Shown in pieces: positions 2,780 to 17,263 of a DNA stretch of 22,499 nucleotides. The notes under the pieces were generated by a model. It searched no databases and had not been told where the DNA came from. It saw nothing but the letters and a program-made list of their open reading frames with translations. Source of the DNA: a virus; the IMG/VR virus record IMGVR_UViG_3300047494_000019, positions 1 through 22,499 of that record. The stretch is one strand, 5' to 3'. The translations under genes were made by a program, and so were the position numbers. The stretch's first letter is position 1; each line of letters begins with the position of its first letter.

Positions 2780-3654
2780 ATGCCAGGTATCCCGTAAAAC
2801 TTCTCTTGGCTTTGTTCCAGTGTTTTCCTATCGGACGTAGAAAGCACAGAGAAATCAATTACAATTTCATTCATATAATAACCTGCCGTCGCGGCGGTGA
2901 CGGAGGAGACATTAAAGCCCGTACCGGCGGTCGCCAATGACGACAAAGATTGAGTGGATATAGCACTTCCATCAATAAATAAGTTGCCACTGAATGTGCC
3001 GCCCGATATTCCTGCGCCAGACTGCAATGTTAATATTGCTGGGGTGCCCCACGCCTGTGAGCTTCCGGCAAAAGCTGCATTCGCGCCAGATTTGACCAAA
3101 TAAATCGGCGCTGGATTTCCACTTCCGCCCGCCGCAAAGCCCAGCGCACTTCCACCATTATTCGTGATAATGGCCGGAAATCCAGCGCTACCAATAATGG
3201 ACTCTACGACATTGATCGTTTGTGCGCCCGCGCCAAACACAGCATAGGATGCATTTTTCAACTGATACGTTACCGTCGACCCAGCCCCGCCAAACTTCAA
3301 TGCGGGCACCCCGCTTGACGTTAAAAGAACCCCGCTTTTTATGATAGGCGGTTGATTGGCGGCTGTGGTCTGAGAAAGATCGCCGGCCGAGCCAGCCGAC
3401 CCTTGGTTATACCATTTCGTCACAAATCCATCACCCGTGCCGACGAAAGCGAGAAGCGCCGTGATATTCAATACCCCTGATCGAAAGCCGACATCGATCG
3501 CCGAATTATCGCTGGATCGCCGAACGTTGATGCAACTGCCTTTATAGGCGGCCCGCATCAACCTGAATGAATAAGCAATGACAGGAACGGTCGAAAGACA
3601 GTCGAGAACACAACCTCCCACGGAAAAACCAATCGTAACATCGCCGATCAGCAT
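2776..3654 (-). CDS. Tail fibre / receptor-binding protein, arabinofuranosidase-B-like LamG fold
   Basis: About 292 aa. Residues around 25-100 follow the pattern of the alpha-L-arabinofuranosidase B catalytic-like domain often found in phage tail proteins: AYSFRLMRAAYKGSCI, then NVRRSSDN, a Leu/Ala-Phe-Val-Gly stretch, and FVTKWYNQGS. A Gly/Ser-rich concanavalin-like beta region follows. The ATG at 3654 overlaps the stop of the upstream fibre gene by one base (TAATG), and I prefer it to an in-frame start at 3708. It probably recognises or trims a surface polysaccharide. Catalytic activity is not shown and the domain may only bind sugar. The gene reads as more AT-rich than the surrounding tail genes, consistent with exchange of host-range modules. 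Confidence 0.78.
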   Translation of the reverse strand: MLIGDVTIGFSVGGCVLDCLSTVPVIAYSFRLMRAAYKGSCINVRRSSDNSAIDVGFRSGVLNITALLAFVGTGDGFVTKWYNQGSAGSAGDLSQTTAANQPPIIKSGVLLTSSGVPALKFGGAGSTVTYQLKNASYAVFGAGAQTINVVESIIGSAGFPAIITNNGGSALGFAAGGSGNPAPIYLVKSGANAAFAGSSQAWGTPAILTLQSGAGISGGTFSGNLFIDGSAISTQSLSSLATAGTGFNVSSVTAATAGYYMNEIVIDFSVLSTSDRKTLEQSQEKFYGIPGI

Positions 3655-4805
3655 TACTGCACACCATTGATCAGCGCGCAGACAATGCGGCCCGAGTCCA
3701 TAACCCAATAAACCAGCACGTCGATCGCATTGGCTGCGGTGCTCAATGTCGGCGTGCCAGCCGCGCCAAACTTGAAATAAGTCCCGAAGCTCGCGGTGCG
3801 GCCACCGGTTGAATCCTGGATAATCTCGATATGCCCGGACGCCCCAACATTCATGACACTCGGGTTCGCGAACGTCACGTTTCCCGTCAACGTCACCACC
3901 GCGTCATTTCCCGCGCTGGTGTCAAAGGTAATCGTGGAAGCATATGTCAGGCTCTGAACCGTTGCAGACTGCGTCTTCGTAAAAGTCTGCGCAGCGTTCA
4001 GCGCTGCTGCATTGGCGACATCGGCCGTGGTAAGCGTCACGGTACCGGTGCGCCCAGCCACGCTGGTCACTTCATTGCCCAGCCCGTCGATCTTGTTCCA
4101 CGTATTGGAAAGCCCGTTAAAAACGGCCTTGTCCCCAACATTCCAGCTACTGATGCCATCCAGCGTGGTGGTGCCAGCGACCGAAACAACATAGGTCACG
4201 CCAGGCGACCCTGTGCCGGACGTAAACGCCGGCGAATTGGTCGATGCGTTCCAATTCCCGCCGAACACCAGAGCTTCCGCCAGACCCAAATTCGCCACCG
4301 CGCCAGCCGCCGTGTTCGCGCCGGTGCCGCCCTGTGTAATCGGTATCGGCGCCGCGAATTGCGGGTTTCCTCCATCCCGCGCCAGCAGCCGGTAATTCGT
4401 CGTGGCGGCGACATATTGCGCGAGGATCTGCTGCCCTGCCTGCACGGCGCCTGCCACCAGCGCGGCCGCCGTACCGCTCAGCAGAGATTTCGCACCGGAC
4501 CCGTTATAGTTGATCGTCACGCTACCGGTGCTGGTCGCGCCCACTAGAATCGACAGCACCATCCCATCCGCCGGCGCTGTCGGCCCCACATTGGAGGCAA
4601 CGGTGATCACCCCGGCCGTGGTGCTGCTATCAACGCAGTTGACGGTAATATCCGTCTGCAGCGCCAACGGGTGACCATTGGCGGTGGAGCCATCATGCAC
4701 ATGCAGACGGTTATTGTCGGTGTTCACCGCCAGCTCGCCGGCCGCACCGGTAAACGCCGCCATGCCGGCCGTGTTGCCACGCCGGCGCTTGACCTGAATG
4801 CTCAT
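3654..4805 (-). CDS. Tail fibre with Mtd_N-type N-terminal domain
   Basis: A 383-aa fibre. The N-terminus (about residues 5-48) has the pattern RRGNTAGMAAFTGAAGELAV followed by NTDNNRLHVHDGST. This is the repeat-like attachment domain seen in the major tropism determinant N-terminal family and many fibres. Mid-protein are the fibre motifs ITQGGTGANTAAGAVANLGL (about 155-175) and VTSVAGRTGTVTLTTADV (about 243-262). A beta-rich C-terminus follows. It should project from the tail tip hub encoded just upstream and carry or position the receptor-binding protein encoded next. The C-terminus has no chaperone domain or enzymatic motif I can recognise. Confidence 0.85.
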   Translation of the reverse strand: MSIQVKRRRGNTAGMAAFTGAAGELAVNTDNNRLHVHDGSTANGHPLALQTDITVNCVDSSTTAGVITVASNVGPTAPADGMVLSILVGATSTGSVTINYNGSGAKSLLSGTAAALVAGAVQAGQQILAQYVAATTNYRLLARDGGNPQFAAPIPITQGGTGANTAAGAVANLGLAEALVFGGNWNASTNSPAFTSGTGSPGVTYVVSVAGTTTLDGISSWNVGDKAVFNGLSNTWNKIDGLGNEVTSVAGRTGTVTLTTADVANAAALNAAQTFTKTQSATVQSLTYASTITFDTSAGNDAVVTLTGNVTFANPSVMNVGASGHIEIIQDSTGGRTASFGTYFKFGAAGTPTLSTAANAIDVLVYWVMDSGRIVCALINGVQ

Positions 4806-7388: not shown

Positions 7389-8798
7389 TTAATAGGCGTA
7401 GTTCGGGGCCGGAACGAACGGAAAGCCCCGGAAATTCGCCTGGTTATTGAACTTGGCGCAGCCGCCGGCGCCCAGGCTGTGGTCACAGCCCGGCCAGATC
7501 AAAAACGCATCGCCCACAGCCGGCGCATAATTCAGCGGCGCGACCAGGTTGACGGTAGACCCGCTGGCGCTGCCAATCTGCACCAGCGTCCCGGCATTCT
7601 GCCCGCCTTGAAACATCAGCATTCCCTGCGCAAAATTCGTGAAAGCCGCATCGACAATCGCAACGGTCGGGGCCGAGCTGTATCCGGTTCCATGGTTGGT
7701 CATGGTCACCCCCGTCACAGCGCCCCCGCTAATCACCGGCACCCCGGCAGCACCCGTGCCGCCCCCGCCGCTGAAAACCACCTGCGTGGCGCCGGAATAG
7801 CCGCTGCCACCGGCGCTGACGCTTACGCTGTTCACGGACTGGCTGCCGCCCAGCAGCACCGCCTCGGCCGTCGCGGTCCCGCTGACGCCCGGACTGATCG
7901 TGATCGTCGGGTTCGTATAGCCAGCGCCAGGGCTCACCACCTGGATGGCGTACAGCACGTACGTGGCGACCCCGTAGGCATTGCTGCGGTTGCCGTAATT
8001 GGCGCTAAGCAGCGCCCGCAGCACGGCGCCAGACCCAGTTGGATCGCTCACCGTAACCGTCGGCACGGAGTAAAATAAATTGTTGGAACCGCCGCTGGTA
8101 ACAATCACCCGGCCAATCGCCGCACCGCCGGCCCCGCTCATATTCGCCGTTGCCACCGCGCCGGTGCCAGCCAGAGACACGACGATCTGGCTCACGGTGG
8201 ACCCGGCGCCGGCCGTCGCCAGCGTCTGGTAATTGCCCTTATTCAGCCCGCAGCCGGAATCATACAGCGTATGCAGGCAAGAAGGCTGCCAAAGGTTGCG
8301 CGGAAAATCGATATCCAGCAGCACCAGGTCGCTTTTCAGGTTGATCTGCGCCGTGGTCCGTCCCAGCCCGGTAATGTCCGCCACGCGGCCCACGAACAGC
8401 GTCACGCCGCCAGTCGCAACCGCCCCTTTCATCGGGTTCGGCGGCCAAGCTGTGGCCGGATTAAAGAACGCCCGCTCCCGCTGGATATAACAGCCATCCA
8501 GCACATGCTGCCTGATCGCCTGCGCCCACGGAATCCCTTTAATCGTATCCGTGCTGCCATAGATCAGGTCGATCTCTTGCTCGTCGATATCCACGCCGGT
8601 GGTCTGCTTGAATTTCAGGCCCTGGATGCGAACGGCGTTCGCGGCGAAATAATTGCCATTCAACCACACCGGAACATCCAGGTTGGTGTAGCGCAGCACC
8701 GTCCCGTCCTGCAGCGTCATGGTGAAGCACTCGGCAAAGGGCAGTTCGGTCCAGCTCTGAATCCCGGCGGCAATCAGCGCCGCATAGCCTGGCTTCAC
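7389..8798 (-). CDS. DUF2163 / BR0599-family tail tip protein with Gly-rich repeat insertion
   Basis: A 469-aa homologue of GTA gp13. Residues 1-190 hold the DUF2163 part (WTELPFAECFTMTLQDGTVL; the Cys-rich SGCGLNKGNY near 180-190). The C-terminus holds the BR0599-type end, PGCDHSLGAGGCAKFNNQ then FRGFPFVPAPN. Between them (about 196-365) is a Gly/Ser/Thr-rich region with four repeats built on GxGYxxxPTVxI. Usual family members are near 290 aa, so this looks like an insertion of roughly 170 aa. The conserved cysteines flanking the insertion are kept, so the core fold is probably intact. The start is GTG, overlapping the DUF2460 gene by 4 bases (GTGA). Confidence 0.9.
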   Translation of the reverse strand: MKPGYAALIAAGIQSWTELPFAECFTMTLQDGTVLRYTNLDVPVWLNGNYFAANAVRIQGLKFKQTTGVDIDEQEIDLIYGSTDTIKGIPWAQAIRQHVLDGCYIQRERAFFNPATAWPPNPMKGAVATGGVTLFVGRVADITGLGRTTAQINLKSDLVLLDIDFPRNLWQPSCLHTLYDSGCGLNKGNYQTLATAGAGSTVSQIVVSLAGTGAVATANMSGAGGAAIGRVIVTSGGSNNLFYSVPTVTVSDPTGSGAVLRALLSANYGNRSNAYGVATYVLYAIQVVSPGAGYTNPTITISPGVSGTATAEAVLLGGSQSVNSVSVSAGGSGYSGATQVVFSGGGGTGAAGVPVISGGAVTGVTMTNHGTGYSSAPTVAIVDAAFTNFAQGMLMFQGGQNAGTLVQIGSASGSTVNLVAPLNYAPAVGDAFLIWPGCDHSLGAGGCAKFNNQANFRGFPFVPAPNYAY

Positions 8799-9697
8799 GA
8801 AGTGCGGACCGATCGGAATTTGCAGCTCTGCAGCGTGTGCATCTGGTACATGAACTCTTCATAATCATGCACGTCGTCGAGAAACCGGCAGACGAAATAA
8901 TAGGTGAAATCCGCCGTCACCGTCACGTTGGCGCCGGGCGGGGTGGCGAAGCTTATCGTATTGCCGTTTGCAACCGCCCAACTCCCACCGGCCTGCGCGA
9001 CACCATTCAGGTAAACCGTCGTCACGATATTCGCGGCCTGCACCTGCTCGCTATAATTGCCCACCGTCCGCAGCAGCGGGAACACCGCCGTGGTGCCGTC
9101 GCCAATCCCCAGCGTGCCGCCGCTCACCTGGTTGAAATCCGGGTCAGTGAACAGCCACGCGCCATACTGCCCCTGCAGGGACAGGAAAAACCCCATCAGC
9201 AGTTGCTGGCTTTGCGCCGGAATCGCGCCCAGATTATTGTTGCCGGAATACAGCCCGTCGAAGGTCAGTTCGAACTCATACAGCGGGATGGTGTAATAGG
9301 GGCTGCGCACCTCCCGCCCGCTCACCGCGGCGGCAATGCGCGTGGAATAAGTCGGCCGCCTGTGTACGCTCCACCCCTGCCCGGCCCCGTTCAATGTCGC
9401 CAGGGTTGGAAAAGCTACTGTTGGAATCAATGGGTTCACCGGATAAGAAAAAACATACTCGATCATCGCGCTGCCCAGGCGCAGTTGTGGGCTGCCGGTG
9501 GTGACGTCCTCGCCAAGCGCCCCGCCGACCCGCAGCTTCGGGCTGCCGGTGGTGACGTCCTCGCCAAGCGCCCCGCCGACCCGCAGCTTCGGGCTGCCGG
9601 TCGTAATGTCCTCGCCGATCGCGCCACCCACCCGCAGCTTGGGCGTTCCGGTGGTAACGTCCTCGCCAAGCGCCCCGCCAACGCGCAGGTTCGTCAC
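8795..9697 (-). CDS. DUF2460 tail tip protein with N-terminal 17-aa repeats
   Basis: A 300-aa homologue of GTA gp12. The DUF2460 domain starts around residue 95: GWSVHRRPTYSTRIAAAVSG, REVRSPYYTIPLYEFELTFD, then LMGFFLSLQGQYGAWLFTDP. The C-terminus has a beta region and LDDVHDYEEFMYQMHTLQSC. In front of it, residues 4-71 are four copies of a 17-aa unit (LRVGGALGEDVTTGSPK-like), plus a fifth degenerate start LRLGSA. It begins with GTG overlapping the upstream stop (GTGA) and ends overlapping the DUF2163 start. The protein should form the distal tail ring; the repeats could be a decoration or an anchor for the fibre-like protein encoded just upstream. Confidence 0.9.
   Translation of the reverse strand: MTNLRVGGALGEDVTTGTPKLRVGGAIGEDITTGSPKLRVGGALGEDVTTGSPKLRVGGALGEDVTTGSPQLRLGSAMIEYVFSYPVNPLIPTVAFPTLATLNGAGQGWSVHRRPTYSTRIAAAVSGREVRSPYYTIPLYEFELTFDGLYSGNNNLGAIPAQSQQLLMGFFLSLQGQYGAWLFTDPDFNQVSGGTLGIGDGTTAVFPLLRTVGNYSEQVQAANIVTTVYLNGVAQAGGSWAVANGNTISFATPPGANVTVTADFTYYFVCRFLDDVHDYEEFMYQMHTLQSCKFRSVRTS
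9485..9688 (-). repeat. 51-bp in-frame tandem repeat, four units
   Basis: Four contiguous 51-bp units (9688-9638, 9637-9587, 9586-9536, 9535-9485) encode residues 4-71 of the DUF2460 protein. Units three and four differ at only three bases, all at their 3' coding ends. Units one and two are more diverged at synonymous and conservative positions (Leu/Ile, Val/Ile, Thr/Ser). The high identity suggests recent duplication and possible copy-number change. Confidence 0.95.
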
Positions 9698-13156: not shown

Positions 13157-13462
13157 GTGCTGGTCATTTGCCTTTGGCTATTTTGCGGGATCATCTGCGC
13201 CGTGATGGCGTCCAACAAAAACCGGAACGTGCCGGGGTGGCTGTTCATCGGCTTCATTTTCGGCATCTTCGCCGTCATTCTGCTGGCGGTCATGAAGTCA
13301 CTGCCCGGCGATGATGCCACGGCGCCGGCACTAACATCACCAGTGAACGCCGTTCACATGAGTGAAACCAAAACCTGCCCGCAATGCGCGGAAACCATCA
13401 AGGCAGCAGCCATCAAATGCCGTTTCTGCGGCGCGGACCTCACCGCCGCTGCGCTGCCTTGA
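13157..13462 (+). CDS. Two-TM membrane protein with C-terminal zinc ribbon (moron)
   Basis: The only plus-strand gene I support here. Its 101 aa contain two membrane helices (about 1-17 and 28-46) joined by the basic, Asn-rich loop ASNKNRNVPGW. A short linker leads to a zinc ribbon with Cys74/Cys77 and Cys88/Cys91 (CPQCAETIKAAAIKCRFCGA). The GTG start has GGGAG seven bases upstream. Two-TM plus zinc-ribbon layouts occur in superinfection-immunity-type and other small membrane proteins, so exclusion of other phages or a change to the host envelope is a reasonable guess, not shown. It sits between the tape measure and tail chaperone genes, facing the other way, as morons do. Its 3' end overlaps the chaperone extension by 23 bases. 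No clear terminator follows it. Confidence 0.82.
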   Translation: MLVICLWLFCGIICAVMASNKNRNVPGWLFIGFIFGIFAVILLAVMKSLPGDDATAPALTSPVNAVHMSETKTCPQCAETIKAAAIKCRFCGADLTAAALP

Positions 13463-13622
13463 ACCACGCCGCCAGCACCACTTGCACGGGCGGGTTGTCT
13501 TTCCAATGGTCGCACAGCGCCCTGTAATGGTTCCAGGTCATCGCATCGATCTGGTCTTCGGTATACCCTAGCACCGTAGTAATCGTCGCCCGTATCTTGG
13601 ACCAGTCGAACTCGCTTAAGGG
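13440..13622 (-). CDS. Tail assembly chaperone extension in the -1 frame (gpT-like part of a G-GT fusion)
   Basis: A 60-codon open stretch (CCC at 13622 to TGA at 13442-13440) has protein-like content: SEFDWSKIRATITTVLGYTE, then AMTWNHYRALCDHW, and VVLAAWFKAAQRR at the end. The FDW start and helical pattern resemble the small tail assembly chaperones that follow the tail tube gene. This frame has no ATG, GTG or TTG between about 13690 and the FDW codons. It is exactly the -1 frame of the preceding gene, which stops at 13616. A -1 ribosomal frameshift in the overlap would give a fusion of about 171 aa, as in lambda G/GT. Candidate slip sites are G GGG GAG (13649-13643) and C CCT TAA at the stop codon (13622-13616); neither is a textbook heptamer. 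Partial feature: it has no start of its own. Confidence 0.72.
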   Translation of the reverse strand, partial: PLSEFDWSKIRATITTVLGYTEDQIDAMTWNHYRALCDHWKDNPPVQVVLAAWFKAAQRR

Positions 13623-13954
13623 GACACCGCTTCCCCTTTGGGCTCCCCCTGGGCATCGTTCTCCGCGTTTGGAACTGGATAATATCCGATTATCTGTCCG
13701 ATTTCCCAGTGAGCTTTCGCGAGTTCGGAAGATTTTACATTTTCCAACTCCAAAAACTGCTTGTAATCACCGTCAAAGCCGCCGCCACGATGAATTTCAC
13801 CATGCACGATTTCAGTTTGCCGTTGAATTTCCATCGCCGTCTTTGGAACCAAACTCGATTCCGCCATCAGCGGCACCAGCGTCATCACATCCTTGATCGT
13901 ATAGGTCGCAAGCGGGTACTCCACCCCACCCAATGTCACGCTATGCTGTGCCAT
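13616..13954 (-). CDS. Tail assembly chaperone, N-terminal product (gpG-like)
   Basis: A 112-aa protein between the major tail protein and tape measure genes, the position of the tail assembly chaperone that binds the tape measure. The N-terminus HSVTLGGVEYPLATYTIKDV resembles domains of small tail-chaperone/GTA gp10-type proteins. The middle is helical (VPKTAMEIQRQTEIVHGEIH), and the last 20 residues are polar and low in structure (NAENDAQGEPKGEAVSP), as expected for a linker across a frameshift site. The ATG overlaps the tail protein stop by one base (TAATG). It should be made alone and as a fusion with the -1 frame extension that follows. Confidence 0.8.
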   Translation of the reverse strand: MAQHSVTLGGVEYPLATYTIKDVMTLVPLMAESSLVPKTAMEIQRQTEIVHGEIHRGGGFDGDYKQFLELENVKSSELAKAHWEIGQIIGYYPVPNAENDAQGEPKGEAVSP

Positions 13955-14925
13955 TAGTTCACATCCCCGCTGAAGCCATAAACCCGCTTGAGGAAATCCG
14001 CACTGGCGGTCCAGTCACTTTCAGGGATCGTCCAGTCCTCGTTCTTGAAGTCGAGGCTGAATTTATCAATCCCGGCGTTAAACACCGTGCAGGTCATCGG
14101 CGTGCCGGCATAGCCCGGGTTGTTGCTTCGGTACAGGTTGCTCGCCACGATCATGAACGTCGGGCGGTACCCCATCGGCTGGGCATAATAGATGAAATTA
14201 GTGCCCGTGGTCTTCGTGTATGTATAGCTCGGCAGCACATACAACCCGGCATCCGCCGGGGCGAAAGTATAAACCCCCGCGGCCACCGAATACTGCCCCG
14301 TGGTGGGGGCGGAGGCGACGCATTTCAGCTGGATGCCCGTCGCGGCATAAATCACCCCGCCATCCGCCACGAAGCTGGCGGCGTTAGCGACGGTGATGGA
14401 AGGCCCGAAGGTAATGGAAGCACCGCTGGCCACCGTGCCCGTCACGGCCTGGCTCAGGGTGACCGTGGTGCCGGTCAAGGACGCCACGGTGGTGCCAGCT
14501 GCAATATTGGTGCCCGTCACGCTCTGCCCCACCACGGCGCCGGTCGTGGAAACAAAGGTTAGGGTCGTGCCGCTGGCGGTGGCGGCGCTGGTCACCAGCG
14601 TGACAGGCGCTGGAATCACCGTTCCCGTCGGCGTCCCCTCATTATCGGCCACCAACGTGGACCCGGTATTCAAGGTCTGGCCCGTGATCAGGTTATTGAC
14701 ATCCTGCATCTTGAATTTCGCGGCTTTGACCTTGCCGGAAACTTTCAGGGCGCCGCGCGCAATGGCTGCCGCCGCATCATCCCGGCCCTGCAGGGGCTTG
14801 TTGCCCCAATCGAGGTCGATCGAAAATTCCTGCGTCGTGCCAACCTGCACCGGCTGCGGCACGGCCACGCCGTTTTGCAGCATGAAGATTTTGCTGGTGC
14901 CGTAAATGTAGCTTTCGAGAGCCAT
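13954..14925 (-). CDS. Major tail (tube) protein with inserted beta module
   Basis: A 323-aa protein in the slot directly before the tail chaperones. The N-terminus MALESYIYGTSKIFMLQNG and the C-terminus (DKFSLDFKNEDWTIPESDWT then ADFLKRVYGFSGDVN) fit a siphovirus tube subunit that polymerises around the tape measure. Residues about 117-164 form a Thr/Val/Ala-rich beta module (FVSTTGAVVGQSV, GTTVASLTGTTVTLSQAVTG, then VASGASITFG). Related modules occur twice in the connector gene at 16178-17263. The module is probably a surface loop or Ig-like decoration on the tube exterior. The assignment rests on position, size and terminal pattern. Confidence 0.85.
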   Translation of the reverse strand: MALESYIYGTSKIFMLQNGVAVPQPVQVGTTQEFSIDLDWGNKPLQGRDDAAAAIARGALKVSGKVKAAKFKMQDVNNLITGQTLNTGSTLVADNEGTPTGTVIPAPVTLVTSAATASGTTLTFVSTTGAVVGQSVTGTNIAAGTTVASLTGTTVTLSQAVTGTVASGASITFGPSITVANAASFVADGGVIYAATGIQLKCVASAPTTGQYSVAAGVYTFAPADAGLYVLPSYTYTKTTGTNFIYYAQPMGYRPTFMIVASNLYRSNNPGYAGTPMTCTVFNAGIDKFSLDFKNEDWTIPESDWTASADFLKRVYGFSGDVN

Positions 14926-15696: not shown

Positions 15697-16178
15697 AGCG
15701 CCGCGGCCTTATCCACCGCCTCATGCATAGCCGCCAAGGCATCGCCCTCAATTTCATGCAGGGGATCACGCAAATAATTACGTGCTGTTATGTTAACTCT
15801 TCGATTATACGCTTTAACCATCCCGCGTGATGGCGCCGAAATCTTAGACGATAGATCGGTACGCCTTGAAGGATGTTCTTTGACATGTGCAACGCCATGA
15901 GCGCCATATTCCTCCGCACCAGCTTTAGCATTTTCGTTTTGCGTATCACCACGCACACTGACGATACCAGAAATCCGATCAGGATAATCCTTTACGGACA
16001 TCTCAATCTCGCTGGCCAGCTTTCCGGTCCGTTTCGGGGCAGCGCCTTCAACCATGTCGCGCAGGCGCTCAGTCACCTGCGTGATCGCCGCTTTCAGGTT
16101 GGCATGCGCCTCGGCCGGAAACTCATCAAACCGCAGCGCAACCTTCCGGTCGGTAACAATCTCGATGCCAATTTCCAT
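15693..16178 (-). CDS. HK97 gp10-like neck protein
   Basis: A 161-aa protein in the head-tail joining block. Features of the gp10-like group are AAPKRTGKLASEIEMSVKDY (about 43-62), AGAEEYGAHGVAHVKEHPSR near the middle, and NYLRDPLHEIEGDALAAM near the end. The ATG overlaps the connector stop by one base (TGATG), and the end overlaps the terminator GTG by 4 bases. It should sit at the junction between connector and tail. Bases about 15770-16010 are visibly more AT-rich than the flanks, so the C-terminal half may come from a different source. Confidence 0.82.
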   Translation of the reverse strand: MEIGIEIVTDRKVALRFDEFPAEAHANLKAAITQVTERLRDMVEGAAPKRTGKLASEIEMSVKDYPDRISGIVSVRGDTQNENAKAGAEEYGAHGVAHVKEHPSRRTDLSSKISAPSRGMVKAYNRRVNITARNYLRDPLHEIEGDALAAMHEAVDKAAAL

Positions 16179-17263
16179 CAGCCCACCACCGGCACGCGAT
16201 AGCTCTCCAGCAGGTCCTCGATGTCCGGCGGCAAATTGCCGCCCTTATTGTCATCAACCCAATACCGCGTGGTCCCCGCTGGCTGCGCTTGTTCCATGAT
16301 CGATGGATCACGCCCACGATTCCAGAACATTTTCGTCACCATGCGGATGCAGGCATCCGTCAGGTCACCCGGCAACGTGGCGTAACCGGCCGTGTAAGTC
16401 ACGGTCGTTGGCCAGGCATCCCAGTCCATTGCCGTGCCCGTGAATGGGTTCAGCCGCATCAACTGCCCGCTCTGCGGCTTCACGAGATAATCTTTGTACG
16501 GCGTCAGCGTCTGCACGGACCCTGGCGCCGTCTGCACAGTCACGCCCGGCGCGAAATACACCAATGACCCGTTTGCAACGGGCGCCGCGATCGGCTGGCT
16601 CAAGGTCACGCTGGTCTGGCCCACGGCGGTAATCAGCGTGCCGTCAGGGATATTCGCCTGCACGGCTGCCATGCCAGCCACCAGGCCCGCCGTGCTGGCA
16701 AAATTCAATACATTGCCAGAACCCGCGGCTGCATTTGTCGGCAGCGTCGCCACCAGCACCGGCCATTCGGAAAGCTGAATCATCCAAATGCTTCCCGGCA
16801 CCTGGCCCGGATAATCGTCCCGCTGCGGAAAAACCTGGTCCTGCAGGGTCTGCACGCCAAACACCCGGTCGCAATGCTTCTGAATTGCCCAGGAAGCCTT
16901 GCCAATCTGGTCCGTCAAAAATATGTCCAGCAGCTGGTCGTTGCCGAACGTAATCACGCTGCCCGCCGGCACATCCCCGGTCACCGGCAAGCTCAGCGTC
17001 ACGGTGGTTGGGGTCACGGCCGCCACCACCGTGCCGGTCTGAATATTCGGTCCCGCCACGCTGGTGGGAGATCCATCGGTGGAGGATTGCGGCGCAATCC
17101 CAGCAGTCCCCAAAAACGGCAGCACCTGGCCGGACGGCACATCGGCGCTCGTCACATAATTGGTACCGCTGGGCACGCCAAGCTGCGCTTTCACCTGCGC
17201 CAGCGTCGCCAGGGCATAGCTCGCCGGCGGCGTGATCACCGTCTTTATGGTTTGCACGCCCAA
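16178..17263 (-). CDS. gp6-like head-tail connector with two inserted beta modules
   Basis: A 361-aa connector. Core segments are the N-terminal YALATLAQVKAQLGV, the helical LLDIFLTDQIGKASWAIQKH (111-130) with CDRVFG, and the C-terminal LPGDLTDACIRMVTKMFWNR. Ordinary gp6-like/DUF3199 connectors are roughly 100-200 aa. The surplus is explained by two Thr/Val/Gly-rich beta modules at residues about 44-107 and 181-240, related to each other and to one in the tail tube protein. Both sit at loops between core pieces. It should form the ring joining portal and tail. The start is TTG at 17263 with GAGG ten bases upstream; GTG at 17257 is an alternative. Confidence 0.82.
   Translation of the reverse strand: MGVQTIKTVITPPASYALATLAQVKAQLGVPSGTNYVTSADVPSGQVLPFLGTAGIAPQSSTDGSPTSVAGPNIQTGTVVAAVTPTTVTLSLPVTGDVPAGSVITFGNDQLLDIFLTDQIGKASWAIQKHCDRVFGVQTLQDQVFPQRDDYPGQVPGSIWMIQLSEWPVLVATLPTNAAAGSGNVLNFASTAGLVAGMAAVQANIPDGTLITAVGQTSVTLSQPIAAPVANGSLVYFAPGVTVQTAPGSVQTLTPYKDYLVKPQSGQLMRLNPFTGTAMDWDAWPTTVTYTAGYATLPGDLTDACIRMVTKMFWNRGRDPSIMEQAQPAGTTRYWVDDNKGGNLPPDIEDLLESYRVPVVG

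Follow-up and report, generated by a model that had tools for sequence, protein, structure and literature searches.

The question raised by this locus is whether a short gene in the tail region of the phage yields one protein or two, the longer of them made through a programmed -1 frameshift. On the minus strand of the window (the whole 22.5-kb stretch of DNA analysed, an IMG/VR virus record), the genes follow the order portal, protease, major capsid protein, connectors, major-tail-protein-like gene, 112-aa ORF, and tape measure gene. An earlier note, made from the sequence of this window, had described a 112-aa tail chaperone just before the tape measure gene, and the gene concerned, 13954-13616 (-), does follow the major tail protein gene and precede the tape measure gene. 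From gene order and the lambda-type layout, we infer that it encodes a lambda G-type tail assembly chaperone. The features of the locus, in the order in which they would be transcribed, are as follows:

14925-13954, minus strand: major-tail-protein-like gene (phrog_8234), labelled as the major tail protein (MTP) by position and relatives
13616-13954, minus strand: putative tail assembly chaperone, 0-frame (G-like), 112 aa, directly after the MTP gene and upstream of the tape measure gene
13661-13664, minus strand: weak Shine-Dalgarno-like GGAG, 11 nt before the heptamer
13643-13649, minus strand: putative slip heptamer G_GGG_GAG (CAG GGG GAG -> GGG GGA)
13618-13638, minus strand: possible stimulatory hairpin AAGGGGA-N7-TCCCCTT, 4 nt after the heptamer
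13443-13646, minus strand: -1 frame extension (putative T-like domain), 68 codons from GGA, with the stop TGA at 13442-13440
13116-10726, minus strand: tape measure gene (TMP; phrog_2854 and others)

It is very probable, judging from sequence comparison, that the phage makes both a 112-aa G-type chaperone and, as a minority product, a 171-aa GT-type fusion by a -1 slip at G_GGG_GAG (13649-13643).

The 112-aa ORF at 13954-13616 (-) stops at TAA 13618-13616. Comparison of the 0-frame protein with Pfam, NCBIfam, and PHROGs matched no known chaperone family. Its structure model, a beta-hairpin with helices, is of low confidence (pLDDT 59); no PDB match was found with this weak model by Foldseek, and searches with both structure models returned nothing informative. 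Several other features of the window were also observed. The major tail protein (13954-14925) and the head-tail adaptor (16178-17263) contain a similar inserted stretch of ~80-110 aa (blastp 1e-14). The gene at 8795-9697 encodes N-terminal tandem repeats of LRVGGALGEDVTTGSPK followed by a DUF2460 domain, and that at 3654-4805 encodes a tail-fibre-like protein with an Mtd_N domain. On the opposite strand, the interval between the extension and the tape measure gene holds a 101-aa ORF at 13157-13462 (+) (phrog_8436, zinc-ribbon UPF0547). This ORF overlaps the final 23 bases of the extension in a tail-to-tail arrangement, is conserved in contig L003, and resembles a moron gene.

From 13766, the -1 frame stays open as far as TGA 13442-13440 and runs 59 codons beyond TAA 13618-13616, so that the extension (SEFDW...) gives a fusion of 103 + 68 = 171 aa. 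The open stretch of about 60 codons and the fusion of about 171 aa in the earlier note agree with this count, and programmed -1 frameshifting as the source of the fusion is strongly supported by comparison. The statement that the FDW codons have no usable start in front of them is likewise correct, as the open -1 frame of the window contains no ATG, GTG, or TTG from 13766 until GTG 13574, and none lies ahead of the conserved segment. The nearest relatives are two contigs, L002 and L003, which are identical across the junction. Identity to them is 60% for the 0-frame protein and 85% for the extension. When the extension is compared with that of L002, differences number 5, 6, and 20 at the 3 codon positions of the -1 frame, with the third position changed most, and they amount to 16 silent codon changes and 9 that alter the residue (dN 0.078, dS 0.905; dN/dS ~0.09). 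Before the first ATG, 6 non-synonymous differences were found versus the 13.2 +/- 1.7 expected when substitutions are placed at random (P ~5e-5). Comparison thus shows the extension evolving, and evidently translated, as a protein without a start of its own. Were the extension translated as a separate protein, by re-initiation following the TAA or from a start that is internal or non-standard, GTG 13574 and ATG 13541 would be available, but both fall within the conserved extension, L002 lacks the GTG, and protein-level selection acts on the segment before any start.

Wider relatives were reached through the major tail protein, namely Pseudomonas phage KT1, Acinetobacter phages 5W and AbaSI_5, and Brevundimonas phages Strzyga and Polewnik. 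Direct tblastn of the 0-frame part or the extension in phages gave nothing usable, and a scan of the genome collection with the fused pair as query gave no relative. In all 5 phages, the gene after the major tail protein carries a -1 extension with (F)DW...PP motifs. The window extension matches the KT1-like extension (hhalign E 9e-7) and the Brevundimonas-like extension (profile E 5e-6), and the last two match each other (profile E 1.5e-13). The 0-frame part of the window showed no link to the Brevundimonas-like 0-frame parts by profile comparison, and no match of the 0-frame protein to phrog_7947 was found. In PHROGs, the halves of the KT1 and 5W genes are phrog_7947 and phrog_8018, both of unknown function, with phrog_8018 representing the -1 extension; the window extension is homologous to phrog_8018 by profile (through alignment A4). 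A function is hereby suggested for these unannotated families, which are split into separate hypothetical genes in GenBank phages. When profile A6 was compared with PDB sequences, an MS2 coat protein variant was matched (E 2e-4; another MS2 coat entry, 0.07), which was taken as chance similarity.

In 5W, AbaSI_5, Strzyga, and Polewnik the extension is annotated as a CDS of its own, in keeping with a separate protein, but the annotated starts lie within the homologous domain. Homologues with a separate start before FDW were looked for, and none was found in the window, L002, or the KT1-like, 5W-like, and Brevundimonas-like records; only the distant loci L061-63 and L064 have an ATG, GTG, or TTG somewhere upstream in the open -1 frame. 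Separate translation would also leave the GGGGGAR conserved at the junction without a role, and is considered extremely unlikely.

As for the place of the shift, the earlier note had named 2 candidates, GGGGGAG at 13649-13643 and CCCTTAA at 13622-13616. Both are located as claimed, and its remark that no perfect in-frame X_XXY_YYZ heptamer exists was borne out in the window overlap. An in-frame G_GGG_GAA or G_GGG_GAG is found at the junction in ~134 records from five or six lineages, comprising the window, L002/L003, 45 KT1-like, 79 Acinetobacter, 4 Brevundimonas-like, and 3 L061-like records; the scans of viral contigs had added 44 KT1-like loci, 77/79 further Acinetobacter-like loci, and five other loci. 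The junction codons are CAG GGG GAG in the window, CCG GGG GAA in L002 and KT1, TCG GGG GAA in 5W, and TCG GGG GAG in Strzyga. In the window, 13649-13643 is the sole in-frame G_GGG_GAR among ~7,170 codon triplets of its genes. With the proteins and codon usage taken as fixed, the site would arise by chance with a probability of 0.04 to 0.27 in a single lineage and ~2e-6 in all six, although the six lineages are not completely independent of one another. The overlap in 5W measures 25 nt, with the heptamer abutting the stop and no other slip-like sequence there, and across the 5W group GGGGGAA is invariant among dozens of distinct flanks, with diverging upstream sequence. Two distant relatives, L060 (= L069) and L064 (= L072), have the canonical G_GGA_AAC at the same place, as is predicted of a functional slip site. 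Exceptions are the Acinetobacter contigs L096 and L097, with G_GGG_AAA instead of G_GGG_GAA, where a G.U pair would let the tRNA on the A-site AAA move to GAA. At L059/L068, a distant locus with a -1 extension, no recognisable slip heptamer was found in the overlap. A second G run in the window, A GGG GAA (13637-13631), was also considered as a slip site, and it is not kept in L002. From these comparisons, it can be seen that the junction with the 0-frame gene carries a conserved heptamer with the marks of a slip site.

The same records bear on the remaining explanations. As the junction lies in the homopolymer GGGGG, an error there in sequencing or assembly could have split one ORF, or the gene could have decayed; but the two-frame layout recurs in ~134 records with diverged flanks, including the isolates KT1, 5W, AbaSI_5, Strzyga, and Polewnik, and the chance of an artefact or decay is practically negligible. 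A slip at the stop itself would have the P-site tRNA-Pro move from CCT to CCC at C CCT TAA (13622-13616) with the ribosome waiting at the TAA. It agrees with the conservation of CCCCTTAAG between the window and L002, in both of which S-P-stop ends frame 0, although the conserved CCCCTT is also explicable by the 3' arm of the hairpin together with coding in the -1 frame. The homologous FDW segment of KT1-like and Brevundimonas-like relatives (KT1, Strzyga) already precedes the 0-frame stop, and the shift must therefore come earlier than the stop. Moreover, the Acinetobacter phages end in GGG GAA TAG/TAA, without a Pro codon. A slip at the stop is thus very unlikely; among the 2 candidates, G GGG GAG is upheld by its conservation among relatives and C CCT TAA is not.

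Possible stimulators flank the heptamer. The 3' arm of the predicted hairpin in the window contains the C CCT T of the CCCTTAA candidate, and its folding energy is not significant alone (z -1.2 for 31 nt, +0.7 for 60 nt). The 19 distinct sequences of the KT1-like loci all keep the heptamer and, at a position similar to that of the hairpin, a 6-bp stem GGCCCC/GGGGCC, with a variable 4-nt spacer and a variable loop; the invariant stem supports a stimulatory hairpin in this group. The upstream SD-like element, GGAG in the window, is weak there (18th percentile of local segments) and good in L002, KT1, 5W, and Strzyga (2nd-6th percentile).

With the slip at G_GGG_GAG, the majority of ribosomes would terminate at TAA 13618-13616 and release the 112-aa protein, and a minority would shift -1 at 13649-13643 and read to TGA 13442-13440. 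In such a shift, tRNA-Gly may re-pair from GGG to GGG and tRNA-Glu from GAG to GGA via a central G.U pair, or the P-site tRNA alone may slip; from the reading frames, the junction peptide would be ...NAENDAQGEAQR for double slippage and ...NAENDAQGGAQR for the P-site slip. The downstream hairpin and the weak upstream GGAG may assist. The small helical C-terminal domain of the fusion would connect the complex of tape measure protein and chaperone with the major tail protein. In a wider sense, G_GGG_GAR is likely to be a working slip class outside X_XXY_YYZ, with A-site re-pairing by a central G.U, maintained by selection in a range of Gram-negative phages, exchangeable for G_GGA_AAC, and used in the GAG form too, as in the window. 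The conservation of a slip site outside the textbook pattern is a clean comparative case, and the G.U re-pairing idea thus becomes easy to test. Frameshift finders restricted to X_XXY_YYZ would miss G_GGG_GAR sites.

Making a longer tail chaperone by a one-base backward slip is standard among long-tailed phages, and such frameshifts were reportedly surveyed by Xu, Hendrix and Duda in 2004. In the lambda model, the T domain added by the -1 shift binds the major tail protein (PMC5009743). The locus resembles lambda G/GT in its position before the tape measure gene, in a -1 shift late in the first gene, and in the short C-terminal domain added. Unlike lambda G/GT, the slip G_GGG_GAG is not a canonical X_XXY_YYZ, no family-level sequence match was found, and the extension is separated from the tape measure gene by an antisense gene. 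In the literature search, GGGGGAG as a slippery frameshift sequence gave no match. In the actinobacteriophage data of PRFect, every one of the roughly one thousand 'fivetwo' sites reads GGGGGAA; the authors have GAA re-pair with GGA by a central G.U and note that 'fivetwo' frameshifts were not experimentally tested (PMC10885494). The present site likewise has five G then A in the same frame, tRNA-Glu would again re-pair with GGA by G:U, and the exact form G_GGG_GAA occurs in most relatives. It differs in phage lineage, with relatives on Pseudomonas, Acinetobacter, and Brevundimonas, and in its last base, which is G (GAG) in the window and Brevundimonas phages; the window form is synonymous and gives the same -1 codon GGA. 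For gp14A of corynephage phi16, GGGGGAA with an internal SD and a pseudoknot was proposed in tail genes (PMC5506516). Tail assembly genes, a GGGGGAA slip, downstream RNA structure, and an upstream SD-like element (GAGG in phi16) are common to both (PMC5506516), whereas a simple hairpin is predicted in the window in place of the pseudoknot. The suggestion in the earlier note that the mechanism may be unusual is weakly true: the heptamer departs from X_XXY_YYZ, but GGGGGAA has already been reported for tail chaperones. The locus is a new member of the lambda G/GT frameshift type with a less common heptamer, not a new mechanism.
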